From IMG/VR virus record IMGVR_UViG_3300042888_000791, positions 1 through 61,756 of that record: a stretch of 61,756 bases of DNA; one strand, given 5' to 3'. Positions within the stretch are counted from its first letter, which is position 1; every line of letters starts with the position of its first letter. Below are positions 2,119-50,284 of the stretch, piece by piece. The position numbers and the translations under genes were made by a program. The notes under the pieces are model-generated. The model made no database searches and was not told the DNA's origin. It saw only the letters and a program-made list of their open reading frames with translations. The DNA comes from a virus.

Positions 2119-3258
2119 ATGGCAGATTTTTCTTTAACCACGCTCTTTGTAGTGCCAGCAAGCCAAACAGCTTTATCTGGTAGTGCTACTCAAGACCTTG
2201 CTCCTGGAATCGTAGGAGTTTATGACAATAATTATAGAGCTGTACCAGCGGGTACAACTATTTATGACGCAAGTGTAGGACCTTATTTCTATGTTGCACA
2301 AGGTAGATCAAGTAACTATTTACAAGGATCTAAACGTTCAGACAAAATTGCAGGATGTTCTCAAGCAGTAGCTTGTCAACCAAATGTAATTGAATGGTAT
2401 AAAGTAGTTGGTTGTCCAACTCCTGTTAACCAAATTACAGTAGTAAATAATTTTAATGTTCGTTGTGGTGACACATTAACTTTAACTTTACGTGCTCACT
2501 CTTCTTACATTGATACATTGTATTTTAATGGATTCACACGTTCAGTAACTGTACAAGCACCTTGTTGTGATTGTGGTGGTGATCCTTGTGATACTGTTGA
2601 TGATAATGCATTAATTAATCAATTGATTGCTAAGTTAACAGCTACAGCACCTGGAATTAATCCAGATAACATTTCATTTAACAACTTCTTTACATTTAAA
2701 AATGTAGGTGGTACTGCTTTATGGATTGAAGGAAAACCTTTAACTAAATATGGTCAACCATGTGATGTTGCTGCTTTCCCTTTTGAATTTGATAGATTGT
2801 GGTTTAATACATTTGTATACTCAGGACCTGCAACTACAGCTGACTTTATTGTTGCTGATAATTGTAACATTGTAGCAACAGCTGCAACTACTCAAACATC
2901 AAATTATGCTAGAGGTTTAGCAACTGAAATTACTCAATTAGAGAAAAATTTCTATAGCTACCAAACAGGATTTATGAAACATCTTTATAGAATGGCTGGA
3001 TACAATCAAGTATTCGATACATTTGTAGATGGAAGTAAAACTTATACTACTTATTACATTAAATTTAATGAATATGGTAGAGGTATTTATAACTTCGGGG
3101 ATTATATCTCTATGGATTCTACTGTTATTATTGCTGTACCTACTACAAGTACTGCTTTTATAACTGATCTTGAAAATACATTAGTTCCTGCTTTAGGTGC
3201 TGTTGTAAGTGATGGTGGTGTTTGTATTACTACAACAACTACTACAACTACAGCATAA
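2119..3258 (+). CDS. Cys-rich capsid-region structural protein with poly-Thr C-terminus, 379 aa
   Basis: A Thr/Val/Asn-rich, beta-looking protein without signal peptide. A cluster of cysteines (PCCDCGGDPCD, about residues 149-159) follows a beta domain containing TLTLTLRAHSSYIDTLYFNG. The C-terminal half ends in CITTTTTTTTA, so the stop comes one residue after eight threonines. Codon use (TAC, GGT, CAA, GTA) resembles the abundant capsid gene, and a strong terminator follows, both signs of high expression. Position and abundance signs suggest an auxiliary capsid or decoration protein; this is inference. The poly-Thr end matches the ends of four other proteins in the window. Confidence 0.55.
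   Translation: MADFSLTTLFVVPASQTALSGSATQDLAPGIVGVYDNNYRAVPAGTTIYDASVGPYFYVAQGRSSNYLQGSKRSDKIAGCSQAVACQPNVIEWYKVVGCPTPVNQITVVNNFNVRCGDTLTLTLRAHSSYIDTLYFNGFTRSVTVQAPCCDCGGDPCDTVDDNALINQLIAKLTATAPGINPDNISFNNFFTFKNVGGTALWIEGKPLTKYGQPCDVAAFPFEFDRLWFNTFVYSGPATTADFIVADNCNIVATAATTQTSNYARGLATEITQLEKNFYSYQTGFMKHLYRMAGYNQVFDTFVDGSKTYTTYYIKFNEYGRGIYNFGDYISMDSTVIIAVPTTSTAFITDLENTLVPALGAVVSDGGVCITTTTTTTTA
3229..3252 (+). repeat. Poly-Thr tract A (8 ACN codons) at C-terminus
   Basis: Eight consecutive ACT/ACA codons in frame, preceded by Cys-Ile and followed by Ala-stop. Confidence 0.9.
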
Positions 3259-3282
3259 TCTGAACAAAACTTAATAACTAAT

Positions 3283-3320
3283 AAAAAGGGAAAGGAGTAA
3301 GAATTCCTTTCCCTTTTTTT
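3283..3320 (+). terminator. Strong Rho-independent terminator ending the capsid block
   Basis: A perfect 14-bp stem AAAAAGGGAAAGGA (3283-3296) / TCCTTTCCCTTTTT (3305-3318) with an 8-base loop, running into T residues. It lies 25 bases after the 379-aa gene and 16 bases before the next start. It separates the capsid block from the fibre block. Confidence 0.9.
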
Positions 3321-3335
3321 ATTAAAACTAATAAC

Positions 3336-3899
3336 ATGCCAACATTAAAATTAGATTTTTTAGTAGTTCCTACATATAATACATTAACTCTTGGTATTAT
3401 TGATGCATCTACATATACAACAAATCCACCATCTGTAAATACTCCATGGATAGAAATTACTCCTCCAGGTTTTGATACAATAGGACTTGTATTCAGTGTT
3501 GATGAATATAATATTTTTACATCATCAAATTTAGGGCTTTCACCAGTAGGTGTTAATCAACCTCTTCCTGATGGTATATATCATATAAAATATTCAGTTA
3601 CACCTGCATATGAAAATTTTGTAGAAAAATCTATTATACGTACAGATAGACTTCAAGAAAGATTTGATGAAGCTTTTATGCGTTTAGATATGATGGAATG
3701 TGATAGTGCAATTAAAACACAAAGTAAAGTTGAATTAGATACAATTTATTATTTTATACAAGGAGCTATCGCAGCTGCTAATAATTGTGCAATAATTCAA
3801 TCAAGTAAATTATATGATCAAGCAAGTAGAATGTTAAATCATTTTATGAAGCATGACTGTGGATGTACAGGTAATAACTATATAAATAATTTCAAATAA
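3336..3899 (+). CDS. Small structural protein with helical C-terminal half, 187 aa
   Basis: Two parts are visible. Residues 1-90 are beta-rich with Pro/Thr turns (LDFLVVPTYNTLTLGIIDAS). Residues 98-175 are helical (DRLQERFDEAFMRLDMMECD, then a long Ala/Asn helix) and lead to the Cys-rich end DCGCTGNNY. No membrane segment or catalytic motif is seen. It is the first gene after the capsid-block terminator and is followed immediately by a Cys-rich 43-codon gene and an 88-codon gene, so these three probably work together. A small head- or appendage-attachment protein is the most likely role, inferred from context. The short distance to the terminator means transcription comes by read-through or from a promoter I cannot see. 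Confidence 0.6.
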   Translation: MPTLKLDFLVVPTYNTLTLGIIDASTYTTNPPSVNTPWIEITPPGFDTIGLVFSVDEYNIFTSSNLGLSPVGVNQPLPDGIYHIKYSVTPAYENFVEKSIIRTDRLQERFDEAFMRLDMMECDSAIKTQSKVELDTIYYFIQGAIAAANNCAIIQSSKLYDQASRMLNHFMKHDCGCTGNNYINNFK

Positions 3900-3900
3900 A

Positions 3901-4032
3901 ATGGCTAATTGTAGTAATTGTAATTCTAATGTTGGATGTTCATGCCAACTAGTAAATGGATTATGTGCAGCTTGTAGAGTTGCAGTTAACAAAGTACAAA
4001 ACTTTATAGAAACATGCTTACACCAAGATTAA
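3901..4032 (+). CDS. Tiny Cys-rich protein, 43 aa
   Basis: ATG at 3901 begins one base after the upstream TAA, and the reading frame ends with TAA at 4030-4032. The product starts MANCSNCNSNVGCSCQLVNG and continues with LCAACRVAVNKVQNF. It has eight cysteines in 43 residues, six in CxxC, CxC or similar spacing, and then a short helix. The density and spacing of cysteines suggest metal binding or disulfides. It overlaps the start of the next gene by 19 bases in another frame, implying translational coupling. The function is unknown; the neighbouring proteins share the Cys-rich character, which suggests a virion component. Confidence 0.5.
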   Translation: MANCSNCNSNVGCSCQLVNGLCAACRVAVNKVQNFIETCLHQD

Positions 4033-4280
4033 CAAATTGTCCTGAATGTGCAGATATTCCTACTATTATAGCAGAGATAGATTGCAAACTTTCTGAAATG
4101 AGTAATTCATTATATAACAATATAGTGTTTATGCTTAATAAATCATTTAATTCTGAAGTAATGTCTGACCTTTTAAAATATAAAAGGATATTAATGTTTA
4201 AAGTTTGTAACCCAAACTATGCAGGACATTTTACAGTGAATATGATTGCAAATAAAATCAAACTTTTAAAATTTAAATAA
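4014..4280 (+). CDS. Small uncharacterised protein, 88 aa
   Basis: Begins inside the end of the 43-codon gene and stops directly before the next ATG at 4281. The N-terminal part contains LTNCPECADIPTIIAEIDCK, a CxxC pair followed by an amphipathic helix; the rest is mostly helical and basic at the end (KIKLLKFK). No family is recognised. The tight packing with the Cys-rich upstream gene and the fibre gene downstream suggests a small connector or assembly factor for the appendages. Confidence 0.5.
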   Translation: MLTPRLTNCPECADIPTIIAEIDCKLSEMSNSLYNNIVFMLNKSFNSEVMSDLLKYKRILMFKVCNPNYAGHFTVNMIANKIKLLKFK

Positions 4281-5384
4281 ATGAGCTGTACTAATTGCTT
4301 TAATGGATGCACTGAAACTGTTTCAGATCAATGCATAAGATATACAGGAAACGATGTTCCTACACTTGGTATACAACATGGAGATACACTTCTTTCTGTT
4401 GAAAATTCTCTTACTACTTTTTTAGCTTCAACATTAACTGGAGCAGGTATAAAACCAGATATTCCAATTGAAAACTTCTGTACATTAGTTAAAAATTATC
4501 TTCCTACATGTACATCTTGTACAGGATTTACATTGAATGATGTATTAATTGCTGTTATACATGCAGCTTGTAATTTACAAGAACAAGTAGATGCAATTGA
4601 TGCTACACTTCTTGTATTAAATTCTGATTATACTTTACCAGTTGATTGTTTAACAGGTGTTACAAATTCTTCAGATACTCATGCTATTGTACAAGCTATT
4701 TTAACTAAACTATGTTCAGTTGATTCAGATTTAACATCATTAACTGCAGAACTTCATACATTATATTCAAGTAATGGTACTGAGTTAAATGCTCAGATTG
4801 CTGCTTATCTAGCTAGTATAGCACCTTCTTCATTGGTTAGTAATAAAATGATTCCTTATACTGCTATACCATTTTATCCTACACCTGCATTTTTAGCTGG
4901 TAAGTTTGATGGAACAGGTGCTGGTATTGGTGATTGGTTAAAAGTATACTTATGTAATGGACAAAATTTTACACCTGATTTAAGAGGTAATGTTCTTATT
5001 GGAGCAAACTCTATGGGCACAGGAGCATATAGTACTAGCAATACTGATACAAACCCTCCATATAGTAACCCTTATTATAATCAGGGTACATCTGCAGGAA
5101 CTAACACAGTTACATTAGGTTTAGGTCAAATACCTAGTCACAATCACGCTGGTTCTACTTCTACTGATACAGGGCATATTCATAATATATTTGCTAATGT
5201 AAATTATGGTACTGGAACCTCTGGTGTTAAATCAGGTACAGATTTCTTTATTCAAGGAGGAACGCATAGTTCTGATTCAAGCACTGCTAATATTAATTTA
5301 ACTATAGCTCAAGCAGGTGGTGGACAGGCACACTCTAATATACAACCTGTTTTAGGAGTTTTATATATAATGTATATACCTTAA
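4281..5384 (+). CDS. Fibre/appendage protein with tail-collar-like C-terminus, 367 aa
   Basis: The Cys-rich start (MSCTNCFNGC) is followed by an anchor-like segment, RYTGNDVPTLGIQHGDTLLS, that aligns with the N-termini of the next two genes. Residues 95-190 are helical and probably form a trimeric stalk. From about residue 190 the protein looks like a phage tail-collar fibre tip: a Pro/Phe-rich stretch, GDWLKVYLCNGQNFTPDLRG, then IPSHNHAG, a Ser/Thr/Gly-rich insert and the typical end QPVLGVLYIMYIP. Such tips bind host surface glycans or proteins. In this position it is probably a head- or neck-attached fibre. It is the only one of the three related fibres without a poly-Thr tract. Confidence 0.75.
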   Translation: MSCTNCFNGCTETVSDQCIRYTGNDVPTLGIQHGDTLLSVENSLTTFLASTLTGAGIKPDIPIENFCTLVKNYLPTCTSCTGFTLNDVLIAVIHAACNLQEQVDAIDATLLVLNSDYTLPVDCLTGVTNSSDTHAIVQAILTKLCSVDSDLTSLTAELHTLYSSNGTELNAQIAAYLASIAPSSLVSNKMIPYTAIPFYPTPAFLAGKFDGTGAGIGDWLKVYLCNGQNFTPDLRGNVLIGANSMGTGAYSTSNTDTNPPYSNPYYNQGTSAGTNTVTLGLGQIPSHNHAGSTSTDTGHIHNIFANVNYGTGTSGVKSGTDFFIQGGTHSSDSSTANINLTIAQAGGGQAHSNIQPVLGVLYIMYIP

Positions 5385-5388
5385 TAAT

Positions 5389-7044
5389 ATGTGGCCATTT
5401 TTACCAAAGAAATGTGATTGTAGTGAAACACCTACAAATTTAAGTATACCTTGTGATCCAACATTACAATCATCTGATGAATTTGTATATGATGGGCCAG
5501 ATTTGCCTTGTATAAATGTGCACCATAATGATACATTAACAACAGCATTACAAGAACTAGATTATTATTTATGTGGTAGATTATTTACTCAACAAGTTAT
5601 GTTTAATATTGAAACAAATATTACAGCATTTCCTGATTTTGTTACACTGATAAATAATGTTGTTTCTTGTGATACTATTCTTTCTTGTTTAACATCAAGC
5701 ACAACTACTTCAACAACATCATCATCAACTAGTACAACTACTACTACAACTACTTGTCATCATCCTAATCTAGTAATAAATGGAGAATTTGATACATCTT
5801 TAGTGTCATGGAATCAAACTATCTCTAATAGTTGGATATGGAGTGCTAATCATGGTGGAAGTGCTTTTTATAATGGACTAGATGAAAATTCTTTATTATA
5901 TCAATCTATACTTACACCAGGAATAACTTATGATGTATCATTTCATTTATGGTGTGATAGTCCTTGTGCAGTTCCTGTAAAAGTATTTGTTGGTACAACA
6001 GAATATGATATTACAGGCATAACAGGTGATGTAGATATTAATCTTATAATTACTTGTACTGGTAATACTTTATTTGGTATACAAGCTTATGACGCTTGTG
6101 GAGAACCTAATAATAGTATTTATATTAATAATGTAGTTGTAAGTGAGCATTGTCCACAATTTACTACTACTACAACTACCATCTTACAACAAAAAAATTT
6201 TGATATAACAGGAAATTGGAATCTTACCACTCCTCCAGTAGTAGATGCATTATCATTTAAAACATTTTTAGAAAGTGGATATGATGGAGATGATACTCAA
6301 AATGGATTCTCTGATGTAGTTATTACAGATTTTTCATTAATAGAAGGTAGATTAACATGTAATTTATTTGCTTTAGAAAATAGTAGTAATTTTAATTTAG
6401 CTTATCTTGAAATTACAGATGTATCTTTATTTGGTGATATTATAGGATTATCTAACATATCTCTTTATACAAATAATATAAATAATGTTAATGATACTAC
6501 ATGGCCAAATAGTATGACACAATTAGATTTATCTAATAATCAAATAGTAAATTTTAATCCAACTTTTCAATTACCCAACTCATTAAGTTCTTTATACTTA
6601 AATGGCAATCAAATAGTAACATTTAACCCATCAGTACCATTACCTAGTTCATTAAGTAATTTATTATTAAGTAATAATTTAATAGTAAATTTTAATCCAT
6701 CCATCCCTTTACCATCATTAACACAAATAGTATTATCCTATAATAATATAAGTACATTTAATCCTAGTATTTCTTTGCCTCTTAGTTTACAGGGTCTTGC
6801 TTTAACTGGTAATGCTATAAGTATATTTAATCCAACTATTGCATTACCTAATTCATTAAATTATTTAGGTTTAGAACAAAATCTTATGACTACTGCAGGG
6901 TATACAGCATCAGAACCATGGGCAAATGCTATGACTAATATACCAGGAAGAGGTAATATAGTATTTACTAGTAATACAAATTCTGTAACAGGTACAAATT
7001 TAGCAACTATATTACATTCTAAAGGTTGGTCTACAACCGGATAA
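5389..7044 (+). CDS. Modular fibre protein: anchor, lectin-like domain and leucine-rich repeats, 551 aa
   Basis: Residues 1-100 carry the shared anchor (FVYDGPDLPCINVHHNDTLT) and end SCLTSS. A Ser/Thr tract follows (105-122). Residues 123-255 look like a jelly-roll carbohydrate-binding domain (NLVINGEFDTSLVSWNQ, typical of galactose-binding-like folds). A second Thr run (259-264) leads to a C-terminal leucine-rich-repeat domain. From residue 372 there are five repeats of about 23 residues plus a partial one, each with a core like LPNSLSSLYLNGNQIVTFNP. The protein therefore joins two putative ligand-binding modules to a virion anchor. The fold names come from sequence pattern only. A host-surface binding role is inferred. 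Confidence 0.7.
   Translation: MWPFLPKKCDCSETPTNLSIPCDPTLQSSDEFVYDGPDLPCINVHHNDTLTTALQELDYYLCGRLFTQQVMFNIETNITAFPDFVTLINNVVSCDTILSCLTSSTTTSTTSSSTSTTTTTTTCHHPNLVINGEFDTSLVSWNQTISNSWIWSANHGGSAFYNGLDENSLLYQSILTPGITYDVSFHLWCDSPCAVPVKVFVGTTEYDITGITGDVDINLIITCTGNTLFGIQAYDACGEPNNSIYINNVVVSEHCPQFTTTTTTILQQKNFDITGNWNLTTPPVVDALSFKTFLESGYDGDDTQNGFSDVVITDFSLIEGRLTCNLFALENSSNFNLAYLEITDVSLFGDIIGLSNISLYTNNINNVNDTTWPNSMTQLDLSNNQIVNFNPTFQLPNSLSSLYLNGNQIVTFNPSVPLPSSLSNLLLSNNLIVNFNPSIPLPSLTQIVLSYNNISTFNPSISLPLSLQGLALTGNAISIFNPTIALPNSLNYLGLEQNLMTTAGYTASEPWANAMTNIPGRGNIVFTSNTNSVTGTNLATILHSKGWSTTG
5701..5754 (+). repeat. Ser/Thr tract B between anchor and lectin-like module
   Basis: Eighteen consecutive ACN/TCN/AGT codons in frame, ending in seven Thr and followed directly by Cys. 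A Cys lies four codons upstream of the first serine/threonine run. Confidence 0.9.
6163..6180 (+). repeat. Poly-Thr tract C between lectin-like and LRR modules
   Basis: Six consecutive ACT/ACA/ACC codons in frame after CPQF. It marks the boundary between the jelly-roll-like module and the leucine-rich-repeat part. Confidence 0.85.
6502..6888 (+). repeat. Leucine-rich repeat array in the fibre gene
   Basis: Five consecutive units of 22-23 residues beginning at residue 372 (W/L-P-x-S-L-x-x-L-x-L-x-x-N-x-I-x-x-F-N-P), plus a sixth degenerate unit. The phase is set by LPNSLSS, LPSSLSN, LPSLTQI, LPLSLQG and LPNSLNY. Confidence 0.85.
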
Positions 7045-7085
7045 TACTAATGACAAAATATTAATAAATTTTTTAAAATAAAAAT

Positions 7086-7862
7086 ATGTGCACAAATAAT
7101 TCAAATTGTACTAACTCAGATAATACTTGTGGATGTGGTATTTCAACAGATCAAGTATCCTATCAAGGGCCTACACTACCATGTGTAGAAATAAATAATT
7201 GTGATACTATGACTACTGTATTACAACAACTTAATAGTTATATATGTAGCGATGAATTAGTTCATACAATTATAAATAATATTATTACTAATATTAGTTT
7301 ATACCAACAATTTACTACTTTAGTAAACCAAACAGTAGATTGCGAAACTGTTTTAGCATGTAATAGTACAACTACTACTACAACACTTGCTCCTTGTGAA
7401 AGTTTTTCATTAAATAATACAGGAGAAACTCCAGTGGCTATAATTATTACTGATTGTATTACACACTTACAAGAAGCTATTATATTAAATCCAGGAAATA
7501 CAAATATTTGTGTTGTAACAAATAGTCCTTTAGTTGTACCAGGTACAGTTATTGCAATACCAAATGGCCCTTGTGGTACCACTACAACTACTAGTACAAG
7601 TTCAACAACTACTACTACCACTACAGCTATTCCATGTGAATGTTTAACTGCTATTAATGAAGATAGTATATCTCATACAATATCTTATACAGATTGTTTT
7701 GGTGTTTTTCTTGAAAATGATATAGATATTCCTCCTTATGAAACTATAAAATTCTGTGGATGTTGCGCATATTCAGATAGTAGTTTTGTAACAATCTCTA
7801 TAGGAGAAAATTGTATAGATCAAATATGCCCAACTACAACAACAACTACTACATTAATATAA
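7086..7862 (+). CDS. Modular appendage protein: anchor plus two small Cys-flanked domains, 258 aa
   Basis: Residues 1-95 contain a Cys-rich start (CTNNSNCTNSDNTCGCG) and the shared anchor (VSYQGPTLPCVEINNCDTMT). Three Thr tracts then divide the rest: one at about residues 95-100, one at 165-180 and one at the C-terminus. The two enclosed modules, about 65 residues each, are beta-rich, begin and end near cysteines (APCESFSL to NGPCG, and IPCECLTA to DQICP), and resemble each other in size and layout. The protein ends CPTTTTTTTLI. No catalytic motif is seen. It is the third fibre-like gene sharing the anchor and is probably displayed on the same virion site as its neighbours. Confidence 0.6.
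   Translation: MCTNNSNCTNSDNTCGCGISTDQVSYQGPTLPCVEINNCDTMTTVLQQLNSYICSDELVHTIINNIITNISLYQQFTTLVNQTVDCETVLACNSTTTTTTLAPCESFSLNNTGETPVAIIITDCITHLQEAIILNPGNTNICVVTNSPLVVPGTVIAIPNGPCGTTTTTSTSSTTTTTTTAIPCECLTAINEDSISHTISYTDCFGVFLENDIDIPPYETIKFCGCCAYSDSSFVTISIGENCIDQICPTTTTTTTLI
7368..7385 (+). repeat. Poly-Thr tract D
   Basis: Six in-frame ACT/ACA codons following CNS and followed by LAPC. Confidence 0.9.
7578..7625 (+). repeat. Thr/Ser tract E
   Basis: Sixteen in-frame Thr/Ser codons, mainly ACN, following CG and followed by AIPC. Confidence 0.9.
7833..7853 (+). repeat. Poly-Thr tract F at C-terminus
   Basis: Seven in-frame ACT/ACA codons after CP and followed by Leu-Ile-stop. Confidence 0.9.
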
Positions 7863-7872
7863 AACTAAACCA

Positions 7873-8121
7873 ATGACAGTATTAATAACTCTTTCAACAG
7901 CAGGTTCAGACTCTGGGCCATTTAATCTTTATTCAGATCTTGATGGATACACATCAGCATTTGAAACAAATGTAGCTAAAGTGGATCTATTAGCAGGGTA
8001 TCCTTCTGCATTAGTACCAGACTATACAGGCATAATTAGAATTATGTCTGATAATTCTTTATGTACTAATTATGTGGATATAATAATATCTGGTACCACA
8101 ACTACAACAACAACAATATAA
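7873..8121 (+). CDS. Orphan small module with poly-Thr C-terminus, 82 aa
   Basis: The whole protein is one beta-rich module (MTVLITLSTAGSDSGPFNLY) ending ISGTTTTTTTI. The module aligns with the first 75 or so residues of the 289-aa protein encoded at 17485, which has KAGPNAGPFNI at the same place. Here the module stops at a Thr tract; there it continues into a 200-residue domain. The gene starts 10 bases after its neighbour and is the last gene before a terminator. Function is unknown. It may be a detached adaptor module that is displayed alone, or a remnant left by recombination at the Thr tract. Confidence 0.6.
   Translation: MTVLITLSTAGSDSGPFNLYSDLDGYTSAFETNVAKVDLLAGYPSALVPDYTGIIRIMSDNSLCTNYVDIIISGTTTTTTTI
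8095..8115 (+). repeat. Poly-Thr tract G at C-terminus
   Basis: Seven in-frame ACC/ACA/ACT codons after Ser-Gly and followed by Ile-stop. Confidence 0.9.
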
Positions 8122-8123
8122 AT

Positions 8124-8153
8124 AAATCTTGTTTTGTTGGTTTTACAAGATTT
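8124..8153 (+). repeat. Hairpin upstream of the fibre-block terminator
   Basis: AAATCTTGT (8124-8132) pairs perfectly with ACAAGATTT (8145-8153) across a 12-base loop. It starts three bases after the stop codon and could protect the mRNA 3' end or form a tandem terminator with the next hairpin. Confidence 0.6.
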
Positions 8154-8154
8154 T

Positions 8155-8186
8155 CTCCCTAGGATTTTTCTAGGGAGTTTTTATTT
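8155..8186 (+). terminator. Rho-independent terminator ending the fibre block
   Basis: CTCCCTAG (8155-8162) pairs with CTAGGGAG (8170-8177) around a T-rich 7-base loop and is followed by TTTTTATTT. It closes the transcript of the fibre genes. Confidence 0.85.
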
Positions 8187-8188
8187 AT

Positions 8189-8232
8189 AATTATTTTAGT
8201 TATAAGTAATTACGGCAATAACTAAAATAATT
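8189..8232. promoter_or_regulatory. 15-bp perfect inverted repeat next to a promoter
   Basis: AATTATTTTAGTTAT (8189-8203) and ATAACTAAAATAATT (8218-8232) are exact inverted copies separated by 14 bases. The right arm ends on the presumed -33 element of the promoter at 8231-8264. This arrangement fits an operator for a dimeric regulator, or a hairpin; there is no T-run after it, so it is not a plain terminator. Confidence 0.45.
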
Positions 8233-8264
8233 TGTTTTATATAAAAACTATTAGCTATCTTTAC
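8231..8264 (+). promoter_or_regulatory. Predicted Bacteroidetes-type promoter for the tail module
   Basis: TTTG (8231-8234), 21 bases, then TATCTTTAC (8256-8264). This matches the Bacteroidetes primary-sigma pattern TTTG / TAnnTTTG except for A in place of the last G. It lies just after a terminator and 26 bases before the metallophosphoesterase start. Confidence 0.5.
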
Positions 8265-8289
8265 CTAGTTTTAACTAATATGAGTACAT

Positions 8290-9516
8290 ATGTCTGAAAG
8301 TAAAAATTTATTATTTCAATTAGAAAGTTTACTTTCTAGAAAAAAAAGTAAAAAGTATTATGCTAGTATACTAGAAATCACTGAATTAGAAGTAAATAAT
8401 TTACTTTTAGAATTAAAAAAAGAAAAAACTTTTACTACAGCTGAACCTGAAAAATTGTGTTCTACAAAAACTACAAAAGTAAATAATGAAAAAGGTACAA
8501 TTGAAAGTACAATAGTTATAAACTTTGAACCAAAAAATGATATTGAATTAGCTGAATTACATAAAATTGATTTAGATAAATACATTATAACTAACTATTG
8601 GTCTAAAATGTTACCAGGTGGAAAATTTACTTCATCTGTTTTTAGTAAAAGAAAACAAGCAGAAGATTATTCTCAAAAAGATTTTTCTAAATTTTTAGAA
8701 ACTTATATTCCTAATATTGTAGAAAAATATATTAAAACTTTAGATGCAACAAAGAAAAATGTAGATGTAGAAATATCTCTGTCAGATTTTCATTTAGCTA
8801 AAAGACATATTGATGGTGATAATAGTACAACAGAAAGAGCACTAAGATATTTTAATGTAGCACAAGAACTAATACATAAGGTAAGAGCTATATATAATAT
8901 AAACACTGTAGTACTTCCTATATCAAATGATTTCTTTCATACTGATAACTATCAAAACCAAACTACAAATGGTACACCACAAGATACTATAATGGACTAC
9001 TCACAAGAGTATGAATTAGGTTTTAGTATTCTTGTAGATACAATTAATATGCTTAGAGCTAATGCTCTTCATGTTAAAGTGGTATTAGTACAAGGTAATC
9101 ATGATAGAACTAAATCTTTTTATTTAGCACATGCATTGGATGTATTTTTTAAATCTGCAGTAGATGTAGATTTTATAAGAGAACATTCAGTTATTAAAGG
9201 ATTAACACTAGGTAATACATTTATTGGTTGGCACCATGGTAACTGTAAATTAGATGATCTTCCTTTATTATTTGCTACATCTACAGAATATAGTCAAGCA
9301 TTTGGTAATGCTAAATATAGAGAAATACATACAGGCGATAAACATCACTATATGGCTAAAGAATTAAAAGGAGTAAGAATACAACAAATGCCCAGTTTGT
9401 CTGGTGCAGATAGATGGCATTCAGATAATAATTTTGTTCACTCAGTAAGAGCTGCACTAGCATTAGTATATGATACTTATCTAGGTAAGGTAGCTGAGTT
9501 TGAATCTAGAATATAA
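8290..9516 (+). CDS. Calcineurin-like metallophosphoesterase, 408 aa
   Basis: The N-terminal 150 residues are Lys/Glu-rich; residues 15-45 look like a small helix-turn-helix (KKYYASILEITELEVNNLLL). From about residue 155 the metallophosphoesterase signature appears: SDFHLAK with D166 and H168, a variant second motif SNDFFHTDN, GNHDR at 269-273 and HTGDKHHY at 347-354. These should bind two metal ions. The second motif lacks the usual GDxxD wording, so activity needs testing. A phosphoesterase in the tail block is typical of crAss-like phages; its substrate is unknown. A five-codon upstream frame (8280-8297) overlaps its start. It is the first gene behind the promoter at 8231. Confidence 0.8.
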   Translation: MSESKNLLFQLESLLSRKKSKKYYASILEITELEVNNLLLELKKEKTFTTAEPEKLCSTKTTKVNNEKGTIESTIVINFEPKNDIELAELHKIDLDKYIITNYWSKMLPGGKFTSSVFSKRKQAEDYSQKDFSKFLETYIPNIVEKYIKTLDATKKNVDVEISLSDFHLAKRHIDGDNSTTERALRYFNVAQELIHKVRAIYNINTVVLPISNDFFHTDNYQNQTTNGTPQDTIMDYSQEYELGFSILVDTINMLRANALHVKVVLVQGNHDRTKSFYLAHALDVFFKSAVDVDFIREHSVIKGLTLGNTFIGWHHGNCKLDDLPLLFATSTEYSQAFGNAKYREIHTGDKHHYMAKELKGVRIQQMPSLSGADRWHSDNNFVHSVRAALALVYDTYLGKVAEFESRI

Positions 9517-9521
9517 ATAAT

Positions 9522-10247
9522 ATGGCAACAGGTAGAAAATTAGTAAGTGATGTTAGAAGTATGCATAAAATACTATCTACAGATTCTTTAATAACAGATA
9601 GAGCTATTCTTTCTGAAATTAGAATTAATTCTAATCTTTTAATTAAAAGAGAAACTAATCTTAGAAAACTTTGGGCTACTGATACATTGTTTACTACTAT
9701 CTCTTGTTTAGAAATGTGTGAAGTACCTATTTCAGAATGTTGTGATTATGTAGATGAATGTACAATAGCTAGAAGTAAAGAAAAAATTCCTCGTATAGCT
9801 GAAGGAAATTATCAATATGTAATACAAGGTGTATACCCAATTAATGCTTTAGGAGGTAAAGTAAATAAACTTAAAGAAATAACTGTTAATAGATATGCAA
9901 ATCTTTTAAAACTTCCTGTAATTAAAAAAGAAGCATATTACTGGATTTCAAATGGTTATCTTTATATAACTAATCCTTTATTACAATCTATTAGATTTGT
10001 AGCTTTTTTTGAAGAAGATGTACCTAATGAAATATTATATCCTGAATGTGGATGTGGTAAAGAATACACACTTGATGAAATTTGTATAAATCCTTTAGAT
10101 AAAGAATTTCCTGTTCCAGGATACTTAGAACAACAAGTATTACAACTTACTTCACAAAAATTATTATCTACTTATTTCAGATTAAAAACTGATTTGGCTG
10201 ATCAAGGAATTGATGGACAAGCACCTAATACAACACCAACAACATAA
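9522..10247 (+). CDS. Tail ring/connector-like structural protein, 241 aa
   Basis: A helical N-terminus (residues 1-60, basic) is followed by a Cys-rich segment (SCLEMCEVPISECCDYVDEC) and a beta domain with YQYVIQGVYPINALGG and YYWISNGYLYITNP. The C-terminus has another Cys cluster (PECGCGKEYTLDEICINP) and a final helix with a Thr/Pro tail. The mix of a helical N-terminus and a beta-barrel-like middle resembles ring or adaptor proteins of podovirus-like tails. It sits between the phosphoesterase and the IHF-like gene, where crAss-like phages encode ring proteins. The exact position in the tail is not known. Confidence 0.6.
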   Translation: MATGRKLVSDVRSMHKILSTDSLITDRAILSEIRINSNLLIKRETNLRKLWATDTLFTTISCLEMCEVPISECCDYVDECTIARSKEKIPRIAEGNYQYVIQGVYPINALGGKVNKLKEITVNRYANLLKLPVIKKEAYYWISNGYLYITNPLLQSIRFVAFFEEDVPNEILYPECGCGKEYTLDEICINPLDKEFPVPGYLEQQVLQLTSQKLLSTYFRLKTDLADQGIDGQAPNTTPTT

Positions 10248-10250
10248 ACT

Positions 10251-10736
10251 ATGGCAAGAGTTTTTGTAGAATGGAGAAGTGCTAGTAAAGAAAATTATAA
10301 TTTATTTTGTAAAAAATATCCTACAATAGAATTATCTTTTGATGAATGGCGTACTATTATTTATGAATTTAGTGAGTTATTTAAAGAATATATTTTAGAA
10401 ACAGGTGAAAAAGCAAAACTACCTTTTGGATTTGGAGAATTTTCTATAATAAAAAAGAAAAGAAGAAAAGTAAAAGTTAATCCAGAAGGAAAAGAATATA
10501 TCAATCTACCGGTGGATTGGCAAAAAACTAAAGAAAAAGGAAAAATTATATATAATTTTAATTACCATACAGAAGGATTTTTCTTTGGTTGGTATTGGTT
10601 TAAGCAAACAACTAGATTTAGACACTCTACTTTATGGTTTTTTAAACCATCTAGAACTACTTCAAGATTAATTAATCATTATATTAAAGCTGATAATAAA
10701 TACCAACACATTTATTGTGAGTGGAATATAAAATAA
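10251..10736 (+). CDS. IHF/HU-like protein of the tail module, 161 aa
   Basis: Residues 28-75 resemble the dimerisation part of HU/IHF proteins (SFDEWRTIIYEFSELFKEYI, then KLPFGFGEFSII followed by KKKRRKVK). The rest is longer than a normal 90-100-residue HU and carries an aromatic insertion (GFFFGWYWFKQTTRFRH) and KPSRTTSRLINHYIK at the end. An IHF-like gene between tail-ring genes is characteristic of crAss-like phages. It may bend DNA near the portal or serve as a structural part; the sequence does not decide. It is packed between neighbours with gaps of 3 and 7 bases. Confidence 0.7.
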   Translation: MARVFVEWRSASKENYNLFCKKYPTIELSFDEWRTIIYEFSELFKEYILETGEKAKLPFGFGEFSIIKKKRRKVKVNPEGKEYINLPVDWQKTKEKGKIIYNFNYHTEGFFFGWYWFKQTTRFRHSTLWFFKPSRTTSRLINHYIKADNKYQHIYCEWNIK

Positions 10737-10743
10737 AAACAAA

Positions 10744-11682
10744 ATGAGCTACTACTTTAAATACAATTTTATTAGTCCTGAACCTGTTTTCTCAACTGTT
10801 AAAGAAGAACTTAAAAGTTACTTTGATACAGGAGCAGTAGATGATTTAATGTTTCCTACTTATTTAGATAAATGTTTAAAAAAATTAGGAAGAACTACTT
10901 ATATAATAACTCCAGAAATATTATATATAGAAAACTTTGAAGCAAGATTACCTGATAACTTTTATGCTGTTAGAGAAGCTTGGATGTGTTCTGAAATTCC
11001 TTTAACATCTTATCAAGATGCTAATTCATTTTATTCACAAGCATCCTCTACTACAATACAAGTTTCTCCTTTAACTATAGGAGGAACACCTTGTAATAAT
11101 CCTAGTTGTCAAAATTCACAATGTGATGGAACATGTATGCCAGAATTAATACAAGCTGTATATAAAACTAATCATACTACACCAAGATCTTATAAAAGAG
11201 ATTACTTATTAAAACCAGGTAATATTTCTGCTAAGAAACATTGTGACATGGAATATAATAGAAATTTTATACCTAATGCATCTTCATTAGATTCATTTGA
11301 CATTAGAGATAATAAATTTGTAACTAATTTTAGAAATGGTGTTGTTCATATGTTAATGTATGCTACAGATTATGATGAGATTGGAAATCAAATGATTCCT
11401 GATAATTATCGTATTAGAGAGTATGTAGAAGCGTTCATTAAATACAAAGTATTTGAAATGTTATTTAATCAAATTAATGATGAAACATTTAATCAAATAG
11501 AAAAAAAATTAATGATGTATAAGCAAATGTCTGAAGAAGCATACATTATGGCAGATATAGAAATTAAAAAACAAGATGTATACCAAAAACAAAATAGAAT
11601 TAGAAAAGATTTAAATAGGTTTAATATGTACGAACTTAGAGATTCTAATTATAATCGTTATGGAAGACGTAGAAATAATTAA
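10744..11682 (+). CDS. Tail ring / head-tail adaptor-like protein, 312 aa
   Basis: The N-terminus (PEPVFSTVKEELKSYFDTGA) and the following helices resemble the gp4-like adaptor proteins of podoviruses, which form a helical ring under the portal. A Cys/Ser insertion (NNPSCQNSQCDGTCMPELI, about residues 117-136) interrupts a beta segment. The C-terminal part has long helices with QIEKKLMMYKQMSEEAYIMA, ending in an Arg/Asn-rich tail. It lies directly before the giant nozzle-like gene. The family is assigned from helix pattern and gene order, so which ring it forms is uncertain. Confidence 0.65.
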   Translation: MSYYFKYNFISPEPVFSTVKEELKSYFDTGAVDDLMFPTYLDKCLKKLGRTTYIITPEILYIENFEARLPDNFYAVREAWMCSEIPLTSYQDANSFYSQASSTTIQVSPLTIGGTPCNNPSCQNSQCDGTCMPELIQAVYKTNHTTPRSYKRDYLLKPGNISAKKHCDMEYNRNFIPNASSLDSFDIRDNKFVTNFRNGVVHMLMYATDYDEIGNQMIPDNYRIREYVEAFIKYKVFEMLFNQINDETFNQIEKKLMMYKQMSEEAYIMADIEIKKQDVYQKQNRIRKDLNRFNMYELRDSNYNRYGRRRNN

Positions 11683-11687
11683 TAATT

Positions 11688-14600
11688 ATGGCAGACGATA
11701 AGATAAATAAAATCAAAACCATTATAGATGGTGACAAAAGCAATATCAATTTAAATGATAATGTTGCTTCTACAGGTATGAATTTGGATAATTCTATTAA
11801 TCAAATTGCTAAAGGACAACTTACTTATGCTTTAAATGCTTCTGTTGAAAATTTTGATTCAAATTCCGTTAGTTACCAAAATGAACAAGGTAATGAGTTT
11901 TGTTTACAATTTCCACAAAATTATGTTTTGGTTGGAAACCATCTTATATCTGAAAAAAATAAACATATTTTCTTTATAACTAATCCTGTAACAGGTGATT
12001 CAGAAATAGGATATATGGATAATAACGATTGTATATATAGAACATTAACAAATGCTTTATGTTTAAATTTTAATATACAATATCCAATTCATAAAATAGT
12101 TCATAAAATAACTAATTGTAAAACTGAAATATATTGGACAGATGGGTACAACCCAAGAAGATATATGGATATTGAAAATGTCCCATATAAACTTTCTGAT
12201 TCTTCTACATTATGTGATCCTTTATTTACTAATATATTAGATTGTAATCAAATAAAATTACAACCTAATTTTACTATACCTGAACTTAATATAGTTGATA
12301 CTATAACAGGGGGTAATATAACTGCTGGTACTATTCAGTTTGCTATACAATATAGTGATGCACAAAGTAATCCATACACATCTTACTATTCAATAACTAA
12401 CCCTACTCCTATTGCAGATACATTTTTAACTACAGTTAATTTTAATTATTCTGTTGGTAAATCTATAGTTGTTGAAATTAATAATTTAGATATTACAGGA
12501 CAATTTCAATATTTTAATTTAGCTGTAATAAAAACAGTTAATGATATTACATCAACGGAATTAGTTGGTACATATTTTATTGATAATAGCACACAACAAA
12601 TAACTTATACAGGACAAAATGTAGATAACATTCGTTTATCTATAGGTGATATATTTGAAAAATATCCTTATTACGAAATAGCTAATGATTTAACAGCTGT
12701 ACAGGACGTTCTTGTATGGGATGGACTTACTTCTATAGATAGAATTAATTATCAATCTATAGCCTCTCAAATCACTTTACAATGGGAAACATATAAACTT
12801 CCTTCTACAGAAAACTACTCTAATGAATTAAATGCTACAAATCTTAGAAGTTACCTTCGTGATGAAGTGTATGCTTTTGAGGTAGTATTTTTATTAGCTA
12901 ATGGAAAACAAACTGATGGTTTTCATATACCAGGAAGAGTTGCTACATTATCCGATTTAGTATTAGTTGATTCTGCTACCAATGATGATTTTATTGGAGA
13001 ACCTTCTATTGGTACAACTAGTCCTTATTGGAAAATATATAATACTGCCACTGTAATTGGTAATGCAGTTGGGTTACCTATTGGTAATGCTACACCACAT
13101 GAATATGGTGAATTTGCTTATTGGGAATCTACAGAAAAATATCCATGTAATGTAAATATATGGGGAGATCTTGCTGATAAACCTATAAGACATCATAAAT
13201 TTCCTGATGTTGCTGTTAGCCCTATTTATGAGTCAGCATTATTTATAGGAACTGGTTTAAATAATATGGTAATGCAAAATGATGCAGTTTACCCTATTGG
13301 TGTAAAAATTGATTCAAGTCAAATTGAAAGTTTAATAAGATTTTCTAATTTAACACCAACTCAACAAGATGATATAGTTGGTTATAAAATAGTAAGAGGA
13401 GATAGATCAACTAATAGATCTATTGTAGCTAAAGGTATATTACGTAATGTAGGTAAATATACAAGAGAAGAAGAAGATTTTATTTATCCTAACTATCCTT
13501 ATAATGATCTTGAACCAGATCCTTTTATTAATGTAAGTAATAATGCTTGGAATCAATTAGCTGAACCATATAATATTTATGTTGTACAATTTAATGCGCC
13601 ACTTACAGCAGTAGTTAAAACATATTTAGAAATTGAATTTACAGACCCTAATACAAATAAAAAAGCTAAACATAAATTTACTACATTAGGTAAACAACTG
13701 TGGTGTTCTATAACTAGACCTATTGTTTTAGGCCCTGGAATAGTTAATAATATTTTTCAAACTAATCATGGTCCTGAATTTTATCCTAATAATATTGCTG
13801 TAATAGAACATGCAAATTATGATGTATATACAATGCGTCATAAAAATGGTCATGCTGGATTTAGAGCAGAATGGAATGATGCAATTGTTGGTACAACTAC
13901 TATTTGGGTTCCGGGAGCTTATGGAGAGGGTTATACTGATTATACTATACATGTTGAACCAGGTACAGTTCCTCAAAATATTAGTACCAAATGGGATGAT
14001 ATTACACATGTTTCTGATATTAGAGTAGAATCTTGTGCAACTGAAACGCCTTTACCTAGTATTGCTACAGATACTAATTTACCATATAGACAAATATTTA
14101 ATTCGCCAGAAACTTCTTTTGGGCAACCTTTTTTAGGAAATGTACTTAAATTAGAACAAGTAATGTATGGAGCTGGTAAAGCCCATTTTACTGAAGTGAG
14201 AAATAATGCTAAATATAGATTATTAACTGCTGAAGCACAAAAAGATGCTTTTAATAGTTCATATCAAATTGCTGCTGTTACACCACCTTTTAATCCTGTA
14301 GCTTTATTTTCAGCTTATCAAGCATATCTTACTATTTATATTAATGGTATTACTAGAAAAAATTATGCATATTCATTTAACTCTAGAGCTAACTATGATT
14401 ATAGTGCTTCTATTCCTAATGGATTAGGTATTAAGCAAAGACCTATTGATACTACAAGGTATTTAATACCCGGAATACAAAATGTTGGTGATACTATTAA
14501 TAATAGAAATATTAATATTAATAATTATCAAAGAGAAACTTCTGTATATATAAAAACTAAAGGAACAGATGGTACAATAAGTGCTTTACCTTTTCCTAGT

Positions 14601-17480
14601 AATAGTGTTAATATGCCAGCAAATATAACAGATAAATCTAGATTTACTATAAGTAACAAGGATGCCTGTTCAGTTCCTGCTAAAGAGCAAGATATAAGTG
14701 TTGTTTCTTATTATGCATCTATGAAAAATATATTTATAAACCAATGGGGTCAAATATATTCTTATAAAACTATTGATACAGGATTTCAACAAATATTTAA
14801 TTCTTTAAGTACAAAAAACAATGTAGTATTTGGAGGAGATACATTTATTTCTAGATTTGCATTTAAAACTAAATTACCTTTTTTTATTGATAATAGAGTT
14901 AATGGATTAGATGATTCAGATATATTTTATGATGAGTTGGGTAATATAGCTTATCCAAAATATTGGCACTCAGCTAGATCTATTTTAGAAAATTATGATA
15001 TAATGACTAACATTATTTCATATAAAGCTCATAACTTTGATTGTAAAAATAGTCAAGAACCTAAAGAAAATAATCCTGATAGAACATTCTATGATGGATA
15101 TTTCTATTTGTTTGCATATGGTATTCCTAACTTTTACTGTGAAAGTTCTTACAATACAGATCTTAGACAAGCATTTAATAATAGAGAAGGTGATTTTTGG
15201 CCTCATGTTAGTAATGGTATTCCAGACGATTGGTTACAAGAAAGTTTTGTAAGTATTCAAAATGATAATACATATAATTATAATGTAACTTATTCTAAAC
15301 AAAATAAAGAAAACTATTTTAGCCATCTTCCTTTTGATTGGGATAGTACATGTTATACAGTATATCCTTTTAGAGCTATTTATTCAAATGCACAGCAAAC
15401 AGATGTTGATAACAAAATAAATAATTGGTTAACTTATGGCCCATTATCCTATTTTGATTTTCCACAAAACTATGGTAAATTAATATCATTAGATGGTATA
15501 CAAAACAAAGCTGTATTAGCTAGGTTTGAAAATAAATCACTAATGTATGATAATCTATTAACTATAGATACAAGTAACCCACAAGCTGCTTATATGGGTA
15601 ATCCATTAATGTTTAGAAAATCTCCACCAATAGATTTTGCTGAAACAGATCTTGGATATGTAGGTAGCCAAAATAAATTATTATTAAAAATACCTAATGG
15701 ACAATTAACTATAGATGCTAAAAGAGGACAAATATTTTTAATAGAAGGAACACAAGCTACAGATCTTTCTGCATTTGGCAGTGGTATGAATAGATTTTTT
15801 ACAGACCATTTAGCTTTTGAGATTTTAAGATATTTTCCTACAGTGGATACTGATAACCATTTTAATGGTATTGGCTTACACGCTGTGTATGATAGTAAAT
15901 TTGATAGAATTATAATTACTAAATTAGATTATATACCTTTAGATAAAAATATAAAGTATTATACTACTACTAAAGAATTTTATTTAGAAGAAGAACAATC
16001 TAATGGTGTTATAATTAAAACACAAGTTTATCTATCAGATAAAGAATTTTTCTGTAATAAATCTTGGACAGTATCATTTAATATTAATACAAAAAGTTGG
16101 GTATCATTTCATAGTTACCTTCCTAATTTTTATATAGCAGAAAATAATTTCTTTTATTCCGGGCTTAATGGTTGTTGTACAGATATTGAAGGAAGTTTTG
16201 AAGCTATAGTTGGTGATACTAATAAACCTATTATGACAACTACAACTACAACCTTACTACCTGTAACTACTACTACTTCTACAACAATATTTATTGATTG
16301 TGAATTAAGTGGTAGAATATCAGCAACATATTGTAATATTGAAGGTAATGCTATTATAACAATTCCTCCACCACCTACTACAACTTTGTGTCAAAGGTCT
16401 GATAGTTTACCATCATTTTATTTAGTAACAGGGTATAATGTATATCCTGATCCAGCTATAGTATCTACAGGAAGTTATGAGGATGCTTGTAATGCAATGG
16501 CATTTTTATTACTTAATACATCTGATAATATAATTGTTGAATCTGATGGTGTAATGGCTACTTCTTTAAATGCAGGTAGTGTTATATATAAAATTAATGG
16601 TTCATTAGATTGTACATTACAAGATGATGGTTGGTATTTTACAGATGAAAGTTCTTCTACTAATACAGTATATCATATTGAAAGTGGTGTAATAACTGAA
16701 CTATTTAGTTGTAATTGTGATACTACAACAACTACAACTACTGCTATTCCTAATGTTTCTGAATGTTGTGGAACATTATTTGCATCAGGTGATAATATAT
16801 ATTATTATAATTCTATTGATATAACTATGAATTTATTAAATGTTCCTGGATATGTAGAATCTATAGGTATAGCAATGACAGCTAATTATTTATGGAGTTT
16901 AGATACTACTGGTATAAAACAATGGGATATAACATTAGCACCGTTTAGTGCTACTTATAATAGATTAATTACAATTCCTTTAAGTTTGTCTGTTAATAGT
17001 GGTATAGTTGCTAAAGATGAAAATACACTAATTACAGTAGACAATACAAATTCTCCTATAGAAGATATAGTTGAATTAAATATTACAGGTGTAACAGCAG
17101 TGGTAACAACTATGTTTAGTTTATTATATAATAGAACTACATTTAGAAATATGTTATATACAACAGATGGTAAATTAATTACAATTAATCAAGACATTAT
17201 CACTTTAGTTCATTATATAACACAATATGATTATAGTACTGGTGTAATGGAATATGATTCAAATATTGGAACATTCTCTCCAACATCAATATTTGAATGT
17301 GAATGTAGTTTATTTTTAACAGATGCAGCAGGAAAAATATATATATTTGATAGAACGGAACTAAGTACTATACTTGAAATAAATACACTTGGTGTTCCTG
17401 TATCTTATGCAACTCAAGTGGGAAGTTGCATTGTTAGCTCTTTAATTAATTCAACAACAACCACAACAACAACTCTTTAA
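11688..17480 (+). CDS. Tail nozzle/muzzle-like protein with poly-Thr cassettes, 1930 aa
   Basis: The first 1500 residues are a long beta-rich protein with early INQIAKGQLTYALNASVENF and many Tyr/Asn-rich strands. This is the size and character expected for the nozzle (P22 gp10-like) or muzzle of crAss-like phages. The core seems to end near residue 1505 (FHSYLPNFYIAENNFFYSGL, then NGCC). After this, Thr tracts separate several modules: a short Cys-flanked one, one of about 110 residues (1565-1675) and one of about 230 residues with propeller-like repeats (GTLFASGDNIYYYNSIDI onward). The protein ends INSTTTTTTTL. The next gene seems to continue the nozzle core, so the modules look inserted into an older, continuous protein. 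Confidence 0.65.
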   Translation: MADDKINKIKTIIDGDKSNINLNDNVASTGMNLDNSINQIAKGQLTYALNASVENFDSNSVSYQNEQGNEFCLQFPQNYVLVGNHLISEKNKHIFFITNPVTGDSEIGYMDNNDCIYRTLTNALCLNFNIQYPIHKIVHKITNCKTEIYWTDGYNPRRYMDIENVPYKLSDSSTLCDPLFTNILDCNQIKLQPNFTIPELNIVDTITGGNITAGTIQFAIQYSDAQSNPYTSYYSITNPTPIADTFLTTVNFNYSVGKSIVVEINNLDITGQFQYFNLAVIKTVNDITSTELVGTYFIDNSTQQITYTGQNVDNIRLSIGDIFEKYPYYEIANDLTAVQDVLVWDGLTSIDRINYQSIASQITLQWETYKLPSTENYSNELNATNLRSYLRDEVYAFEVVFLLANGKQTDGFHIPGRVATLSDLVLVDSATNDDFIGEPSIGTTSPYWKIYNTATVIGNAVGLPIGNATPHEYGEFAYWESTEKYPCNVNIWGDLADKPIRHHKFPDVAVSPIYESALFIGTGLNNMVMQNDAVYPIGVKIDSSQIESLIRFSNLTPTQQDDIVGYKIVRGDRSTNRSIVAKGILRNVGKYTREEEDFIYPNYPYNDLEPDPFINVSNNAWNQLAEPYNIYVVQFNAPLTAVVKTYLEIEFTDPNTNKKAKHKFTTLGKQLWCSITRPIVLGPGIVNNIFQTNHGPEFYPNNIAVIEHANYDVYTMRHKNGHAGFRAEWNDAIVGTTTIWVPGAYGEGYTDYTIHVEPGTVPQNISTKWDDITHVSDIRVESCATETPLPSIATDTNLPYRQIFNSPETSFGQPFLGNVLKLEQVMYGAGKAHFTEVRNNAKYRLLTAEAQKDAFNSSYQIAAVTPPFNPVALFSAYQAYLTIYINGITRKNYAYSFNSRANYDYSASIPNGLGIKQRPIDTTRYLIPGIQNVGDTINNRNININNYQRETSVYIKTKGTDGTISALPFPSNSVNMPANITDKSRFTISNKDACSVPAKEQDISVVSYYASMKNIFINQWGQIYSYKTIDTGFQQIFNSLSTKNNVVFGGDTFISRFAFKTKLPFFIDNRVNGLDDSDIFYDELGNIAYPKYWHSARSILENYDIMTNIISYKAHNFDCKNSQEPKENNPDRTFYDGYFYLFAYGIPNFYCESSYNTDLRQAFNNREGDFWPHVSNGIPDDWLQESFVSIQNDNTYNYNVTYSKQNKENYFSHLPFDWDSTCYTVYPFRAIYSNAQQTDVDNKINNWLTYGPLSYFDFPQNYGKLISLDGIQNKAVLARFENKSLMYDNLLTIDTSNPQAAYMGNPLMFRKSPPIDFAETDLGYVGSQNKLLLKIPNGQLTIDAKRGQIFLIEGTQATDLSAFGSGMNRFFTDHLAFEILRYFPTVDTDNHFNGIGLHAVYDSKFDRIIITKLDYIPLDKNIKYYTTTKEFYLEEEQSNGVIIKTQVYLSDKEFFCNKSWTVSFNINTKSWVSFHSYLPNFYIAENNFFYSGLNGCCTDIEGSFEAIVGDTNKPIMTTTTTTLLPVTTTTSTTIFIDCELSGRISATYCNIEGNAIITIPPPPTTTLCQRSDSLPSFYLVTGYNVYPDPAIVSTGSYEDACNAMAFLLLNTSDNIIVESDGVMATSLNAGSVIYKINGSLDCTLQDDGWYFTDESSSTNTVYHIESGVITELFSCNCDTTTTTTTAIPNVSECCGTLFASGDNIYYYNSIDITMNLLNVPGYVESIGIAMTANYLWSLDTTGIKQWDITLAPFSATYNRLITIPLSLSVNSGIVAKDENTLITVDNTNSPIEDIVELNITGVTAVVTTMFSLLYNRTTFRNMLYTTDGKLITINQDIITLVHYITQYDYSTGVMEYDSNIGTFSPTSIFECECSLFLTDAAGKIYIFDRTELSTILEINTLGVPVSYATQVGSCIVSSLINSTTTTTTTL
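16236..16286 (+). repeat. Thr tract H at the end of the nozzle core
   Basis: Six Thr codons, a four-residue spacer (LLPV), four Thr, one Ser and two Thr in frame, followed within five codons by Cys. Confidence 0.85.
16377..16385 (+). repeat. Short Pro/Thr tract I
   Basis: Three Thr codons after four prolines and before Leu-Cys. It is a short member of the tract family. Confidence 0.6.
16722..16742 (+). repeat. Poly-Thr tract J
   Basis: Seven in-frame ACT/ACA codons after CNCD and before AIPNVSECC. The AIP after the tract also follows tract E. Confidence 0.9.
17454..17474 (+). repeat. Poly-Thr tract K at C-terminus
   Basis: Seven in-frame ACA/ACC/ACT codons followed by Leu-stop. The +1 frame is open from 17446 through the start of the next gene. 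Confidence 0.9.
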
Positions 17481-49822: not shown

Positions 49823-50284
49823 ATGGATAAATCAACATTAGATAGAATAAACTTACTACATCCTTCTGTGAGAGAAGAAATGAAAGTTATAGTTAATGAA
49901 TGTAATAAAGCATTAACTGGGAAATCTCAAGTTAGAATAGCACAAGGATTAAGAACATTTGCTGAACAAGATGCTTTATATGCTAAAAGACCAAAAGTAA
50001 CTAATGCTAAAGGAGGTCAATCTGTACATAATTATGGATTCGCTATAGATATTGTTTTAATCATAAATGGAAAGGAAGCTTCTTGGGATACTCATAAAGA
50101 TTGGGATAATGATGGGATAGCAGATTGGGATGAATGCGTAAAAGTATTTGCTAAACACGGATGGAGCTGGGGAGGAAATTGGGCGAGTTTTAAAGATATG
50201 CCTCATTTTGATAAAATAGGTTTTAACAATTGGAGAATATTACAAACCAAACCTAGAGATAAAGCTGGGTATATAATTATATAA
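49823..50284 (+). CDS. M15-family peptidase (endolysin) with EF-hand loop, 153 aa
   Basis: A D-Ala-D-Ala carboxypeptidase/L-Ala-D-Glu endopeptidase of the VanY/M15 type. The zinc motif SVHNYGFAID gives H69 and D76, and MPHFD gives the third ligand, H128. The conserved GWSWGGNW lies before it, and RIAQGLRTFAEQDALYAK is the usual substrate-side helix. Residues 93-104 (DWDNDGIADWDE) are a complete EF-hand calcium loop (D at 1, 3, 5 and 9, E at 12). Calcium control is known for the phage T5 endolysin of this family. It lacks a signal peptide, so it should depend on the holin. The full length is typical of single-domain phage M15 lysins. Confidence 0.9.
   Translation: MDKSTLDRINLLHPSVREEMKVIVNECNKALTGKSQVRIAQGLRTFAEQDALYAKRPKVTNAKGGQSVHNYGFAIDIVLIINGKEASWDTHKDWDNDGIADWDECVKVFAKHGWSWGGNWASFKDMPHFDKIGFNNWRILQTKPRDKAGYIII

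Follow-up and report, generated by a model that had tools for sequence, protein, structure and literature searches.

Genome and gene context

The stretch of DNA analysed here in full, called the window, comprises the 61,756 bases of a virus record and comes from a crAss-like phage (Crassvirales). Searches with Pfam place tail ring protein 2 at 9522-10247 (CrAss_Ring_2, E 2.3e-19) and tail ring protein 1 at 10744-11682 (CrAss_Ring_1, E 4.3e-8), followed by a 1930-aa ORF (11688-17480) whose product shows homology to the muzzle protein annotated in csAssE-Sib (27.9% identity, E 2e-58). A search of the phage collection found no near-DNA match of the window. Amid the virion gene block lies a gene of the Calcineurin-like DNA exonuclease family (PHROG 704, 8290-9516), while further downstream the window encodes a 1389-aa protein containing a YkuD L,D-transpeptidase domain (20623-24792) and a VanY/M15 peptidase ORF (49823-50284).

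Poly-threonine tracts in the window

Several proteins of this phage carry uninterrupted runs of threonine, and all of these genes are on the forward (+) strand. The first is a 379-aa protein from the virion-gene region (2119-3258) that ends in a T8 tract (3229-3252), behind which follow only Ala and the stop codon. ORF 5389-7044 is built of an N-terminal anchor, a 136-aa module and a leucine-rich-repeat module; a Thr/Ser tract ending in T7 (5692-5754) joins the anchor to the 136-aa module, and a T6 tract (6163-6180) joins the latter to the leucine-rich repeats. Its neighbour, ORF 7086-7862, consists of an anchor and two beta modules of 60-70 aa (A and B) with tracts between and behind them: S-T6 between anchor and module A (7365-7385), a Thr/Ser tract ending in T7 between modules A and B (7578-7625), and T7 as C-terminal tail (7833-7853). 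The 82-aa product of ORF 7873-8121 is an anchor only, with T7 at its end (8095-8115). In the muzzle-like tail protein (11688-17480) the tracts bound variable modules at the C-terminal end: a double tract, T6-LLPV-T4ST2, with its two runs 4 residues apart, stands close to where the conserved muzzle-like body ends (16236-16286), T7 forms an inter-module joint (16722-16742), and S-T7 forms the tail (17451-17474). The last tract is a T7 (58776-58796) near the C terminus of a 58-aa protein (58635-58811), which then closes with EHLL and stop, and whose gene lies near a predicted glycosyltransferase gene described below. ORFs 58215-58625 and 58635-58811 are tandem paralogues with a common N-terminal part of 40 aa (68% identical), and the first 45 residues of the shorter protein match the longer; past the shared TYECCN one paralogue enters a 90-aa domain and the other runs into T7 and stop.

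The original prediction had listed twelve in-frame ACN tracts and read them as joints between modules. The tracts are found where they had been placed, with the exception of the site at 16377, which holds TTT only and was dropped, and joints do exist; five tracts (3229, 7833, 8095, 17451 and 58776), however, stand one to four residues before a stop codon and are C-terminal tails, not joints. As to the modules themselves, the leucine-rich repeats could be assigned (PF13855), whereas the lectin-like and propeller-like folds that had also been suggested were not confirmed by Pfam in the window modules, for which a fold search of the PDB gave no significant match.

The 19,807 coding residues of the window contain 11 Thr runs of at least six, whereas shuffling of the residues within each protein (2000 trials) yields 0.021 on average and never more than 1. 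The (ACN)6 pattern has 20 forward and 0 reverse matches in the window (1 for the backwards control), and the tracts are all on the coding strand and all in one codon phase, as had been noted from the start. A cysteine within six residues accompanies 9 of 11 joints in the window (31% expected), and the same holds in relatives for 376 of 516 joints (29% expected), which bears out the earlier observation that most tracts have a Cys nearby.

Length, spelling and disorder of the tracts

For comparison we collected from IMG/VR 80 relatives of the muzzle-like protein with their flanks, on contigs that are often partial. Together with the window they provide 238 distinct ORFs with Thr runs, on the coding strand in every case. 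The lengths of pure Thr runs in this set are distributed as follows: T4 170, T5 135, T6 100, T7 314, T8 66 and T9 3, with none longer than nine. (Contigs retrieved by the (ACN)7 pattern also peak at T7, but that peak is biased by the search threshold and was left out.) A frequent arrangement of the runs is a T7-x-x-P repeat that returns every ten or eleven residues. Long Ser/Thr arrays, whose length differs between close relatives, tend toward Ser-Ser-T7 endings.

At the DNA level, 294 distinct T7 tracts use 240 different spellings, while 263 would be expected with independent codons. An almost random spelling combined with a length peak at seven indicates selection on the peptide and its length and not on a DNA site; a DNA recombination motif inside the tracts was considered and rejected, the codon order being almost random. 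The share of ACC in T7 tracts (relatives L009-L088 plus the window) is 17-22% at positions 1-6 and 4.8% at position 7, the share among Thr codons elsewhere being 4.7%. In the AlphaFold2 model of ORF 7086-7862 the two modules, at residues of about 102-162 and 181-249, are ordered for the most part, while pLDDT drops below 50 in the tracts, including the one between modules A and B.

Exchange of modules at the tracts

When 284 tract proteins were divided at the tracts, 637 modules resulted, which fall into 139 similarity clusters (by single linkage, so that the largest may be merged). Among the non-first clusters with at least two members, 18 of 49 follow anchors of two or more kinds. Two of the relatives' modules match the Pfam families Fib_succ_major and Lcl_C; the Fib_succ_major modules occur behind four different anchor genes and always in last position (for example L013 2008-3030, L016 944 and L051 5593).

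Homology between these proteins tends to stop at the tracts. With the tracts masked, 3909 of 5066 protein pairs with a common N terminus lose homology no more than 12 residues from a tract (29% expected), and so do 830 of 1497 pairs of the muzzle-like protein (55%, against 5.7% expected), these pairs not being independent since related sequences are counted repeatedly. For DNA homology at 80% or more, 20.8% of 610 distinct ends are found at most 40 nt from a tract, compared to 6.1% for shifted tracts and 9.5% for the highest of 300 shifts; when only ends within tract-bearing genes are considered, the figures are 47.6% and 16.9%. The breakpoints concern whole modules and not point changes.

The window and its relative L010 share 90.8% DNA homology over 7370-7853 only, a stretch bounded by the first (7365-7385) and third (7833-7853) tracts of ORF 7086-7862, while the anchors that precede this stretch are just 34% identical; the module that comes next in L010 is located in another gene of the window (5389-7044). 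L012 and L013 belong to phages that are 99.7% identical and differ by one Fib_succ_major-type module, with more than 99.6% identity on both sides of it. Here the 5' break lies inside a tract and the 3' break beyond the stop codon, a pattern repeated in L038 and L039, which means that gain or loss of modules also runs from tract to gene end and not only from tract to tract. In this respect the original prediction needs amending, since these two pairs are the most recent events and a tract is not simply a place of crossover with another tract. Alignment with relatives nevertheless revealed the same modules with different neighbours and a breakpoint at the Thr tract, in protein and DNA alike, instead of a constant order of modules uninterrupted at the tracts, and these sequence comparisons support the proposed domain shuffling.

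A predicted glycosyltransferase

Encoded close to the 58-aa tract protein, the 338-aa product of ORF 57180-58196 (+) belongs to PHROG 4417, a family without assigned function. Pfam and NCBIfam returned no match for it, GT8-type glycosyltransferase models included, and a sequence search of solved structures gave nothing relevant. The AlphaFold2 model is confident (pLDDT 93.6, pTM 0.91), and its best solved matches in Foldseek are glycogenin, UGGT, XXYLT1 and alpha-1,3-galactosyltransferase/GTB, all of them sugar-nucleotide enzymes of the GT-A fold, at TM-scores of only about 0.55. Many viral library matches of the protein are annotated as glycosyltransferase, and the two aspartates of the metal-binding D-x-D motif (D108 and D110) are invariant across 28 homologues. 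Judging from predicted fold and motif, the protein probably is a GT-A-fold glycosyltransferase.

A single tblastn search (E <= 1e-5) found homologues of this family in 74 phage records. Chromosomes of Sphingobacteriales (L203, L206-L209 and L211-L213) encode longer homologues of 480-830 aa, one of which carries an extra Glyco_transf_7C domain; these are mostly without Thr tracts nearby, so PHROG 4417 is not tied to poly-Thr everywhere.

Association of the enzyme family with poly-threonine

In 78 of 79 IMG/VR loci a Thr/Ser tract lies no more than 1.5 kb from the enzyme gene, usually in short ORFs adjoining the gene. Among muzzle relatives on contigs of at least 80 kb the enzyme is present in all 13, and the enzyme and (ACN)7 are both absent from the four outgroup phages Leptolyngbya Lbo-JY46, Cellulophaga phi4:1, csAssE-Sib and Flavobacterium Fpv3. 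Since co-occurrence within the crAss-like group could go back to one ancestral event, independent lineages weigh more. Prophages of Firmicutes (GTDB) have poly-Thr tails on genes near the enzyme in 30 of 30 loci, the tailed proteins including Phage_capsid and Phage_TTP_1 members. Known phages have poly-Thr tracts near the enzyme in nine of 11 records (phiFL2A, vipetofem, 1706, MA9V-3, PMBT8, DH5, R9.1, CHPC836 and LT985578); the remaining two are Tybeckvirus phages with TTVAP/TTVKP repeats in the gene directly upstream (L548 4386-4979 and L171 2422-2979), a sequence pattern that suggests a variant acceptor.

A case-control comparison was made with 38 homologues of one tail-tube protein from Lactobacillales genomes, the enzyme being scored within the fetched stretch. 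A Thr tail is present in 5 of 5 homologues with the enzyme and in 0 of 33 without it (Fisher 2e-6, or about 1e-4 if the three near-identical positives among the five are counted once); the tail-free controls are mostly distant homologues, one of them being 47% identical and ending in FGEPKEDDTP. Viral contigs chosen by a Thr-frame (ACN)7 contain PHROG 4417 in 10 of 50 cases, those chosen by poly-Asp in 0 of 50. The other 40 Thr-tract contigs, many of them fragments, show that Thr runs also exist without this enzyme. Five environmental viral contigs (L263, L283, L302, L313 and L326) have Thr-run linkers and no PHROG 4417 where it was searched for, and some Thr-run contigs may use other glycosyltransferases. 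Searches of open-licence literature found no report tying poly-threonine to a phage or to a glycosyltransferase.

Interpretation

These data make it quite likely, in our judgement, that the runs are peptide tags, most probably O-glycosylated by the phage's own GT-A enzyme, which double as places of module exchange. A tag of about seven Thr would sit in the disordered linkers and tails of virion proteins, the enzyme encoded at 57180-58196 would O-glycosylate it inside the infected cell, and the virion would thereby obtain sugar-coated linkers and tails that may serve stability, protease resistance or shielding. Modules flanked by runs in the same frame could then be gained, lost or exchanged without damage to fold or frame. 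If the run is the acceptor of the enzyme, this would explain the free tails, the length near seven, the free choice of codons, and the fact that tails track the enzyme; linkers that are disordered and sugar-coated would offer natural places of exchange between folded modules, which would explain the breakpoints at the tracts. Domain shuffling and a shared O-glycan linker had originally been offered as two separate readings. They fit together, and the second now draws support from a predicted GT-A glycosyltransferase in the same window whose family accompanies poly-Thr tails in unrelated phages.

We also lean, with distinctly less assurance, towards a broader view in which this is a portable system: the PHROG 4417 enzyme would read about six to seven Thr as its acceptor, enzyme and tags would have travelled together among phages of Bacteroidota and Firmicutes, the tags becoming joints for exchanging modules of surface proteins in crAss-like phages.

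The alternative that fares best, although we consider it unlikely, is that the tracts are unmodified flexible linkers that tolerate shuffling, while the glycosyltransferase acts elsewhere, for example on host surface glycans. Folded modules separated by tracts that are disordered in the model, and breakpoints at those tracts, are what such linkers would produce as well. They would leave unexplained, however, why free C-terminal tails with nothing behind them exist, why lengths peak at seven and stop at nine, and why unrelated capsid and tail-tube proteins of Firmicutes phages bear tails only with the enzyme family adjacent. It is a good deal less probable that something other than this enzyme, such as a host glycosylation system or a virion partner, acts on the tag first by modifying or recognising it, the enzyme only extending or editing the sugar. 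Initiation of O-glycosylation by PHROG 4417 is indeed presumptive, and tracts without the enzyme occur, but tail-tube tails come and go with the enzyme gene across hosts, which speaks for the enzyme itself as the relevant partner. We give very little credence to the tracts being DNA recombination sites, site-specific or repeat-driven, with the Thr peptide as a by-product: the clustering of breakpoints (20.8% of 610 no farther than 40 nt from a tract, where 6.1% would be expected) and the single phase of the tracts would agree with it, but the 240 spellings in 294 T7 tracts (263 if random) share no common motif, each of the two recent empty/filled pairs has its 5' break alone within a tract, and many tracts are tails of proteins that show no module. 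Neutral repeats arising by replication slippage of ACN codons, to which the variable length of the longer Ser/Thr arrays among close relatives might point, are the least credible of all, since slippage predicts falling lengths and uniform codons where we see a peak at seven, none above nine in the group, and mixed ACT/ACA/ACC.

Tagging of this kind would give a testable function to the unannotated PHROG 4417, a family found in many phages, and, if true, a simple rule by which a T6-T8 tail or linker predicts which virion proteins are glycosylated. As glycans on the virion can protect phages against antibodies, such a rule would matter for phage therapy and for the way crAss-like phages of gut and aquatic environments present themselves. 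Decoration of a Thr run by one enzyme would, if real, be a useful tool for glycoengineering, and a tag that doubles as a swap joint would account for the in-frame reshuffling of surface modules.

Comparison with known systems

The virions of mycobacteriophages such as Che8, Corndog and Myrna are glycosylated by phage-encoded glycosyltransferases (Freeman et al. 2023, as described in PMC12619734 and PMC12363180); the same two articles report that capsid and tail-tube subunits carry the glycans at their C termini, and that such decoration can protect phages against antibodies. The window shares with them a phage-encoded glycosyltransferase, here predicted from fold and motif; in the Firmicutes relatives it is these two kinds of protein that bear poly-Thr tails, as candidate acceptors. 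Unlike in mycobacteriophages, the tags of the window double as inter-module joints, and the enzyme has no homologue in Mycobacterium phages by tblastn at E <= 1e-5; the Che8 capsid and tail proteins that were checked have no poly-Thr tail. In function the proposed system of the window resembles mycobacteriophage virion glycosylation, of which it may or may not be a member. Neither threonine nor glycosylation comes up in the main text of the article describing the phi-crAss001 structure (PMC10172136).

With GT-A enzymes of the GT8/GT24/GT6 kind (glycogenin, UGGT, alpha-1,3-GalT) the window protein has the predicted fold and the D-x-D motif in common, but it differs from them in lacking any Pfam or NCBIfam match and in its TM-score of about 0.55. 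Thr/Ser-rich O-glycosylated linkers are found in bacterial multi-domain enzymes and in eukaryotic mucins. The disordered Thr-rich stretches between folded domains in the window look much the same, with glycans that are presumed here; what sets them apart is that they are viral, that the run length is near seven, and that the enzyme gene lies next to or near the acceptor genes. Collagen-like repeats serve as exchange points in phage tail fibres and likewise are low-complexity repeats at which modules are exchanged in frame, but they consist of Gly-X-Y, whereas the window has poly-Thr of quantised length with a tie to a glycosyltransferase. The window also encodes a tail-fibre-like protein with collagen repeats of its own (PF01391, 60374-61333), which is separate from the poly-Thr proteins.
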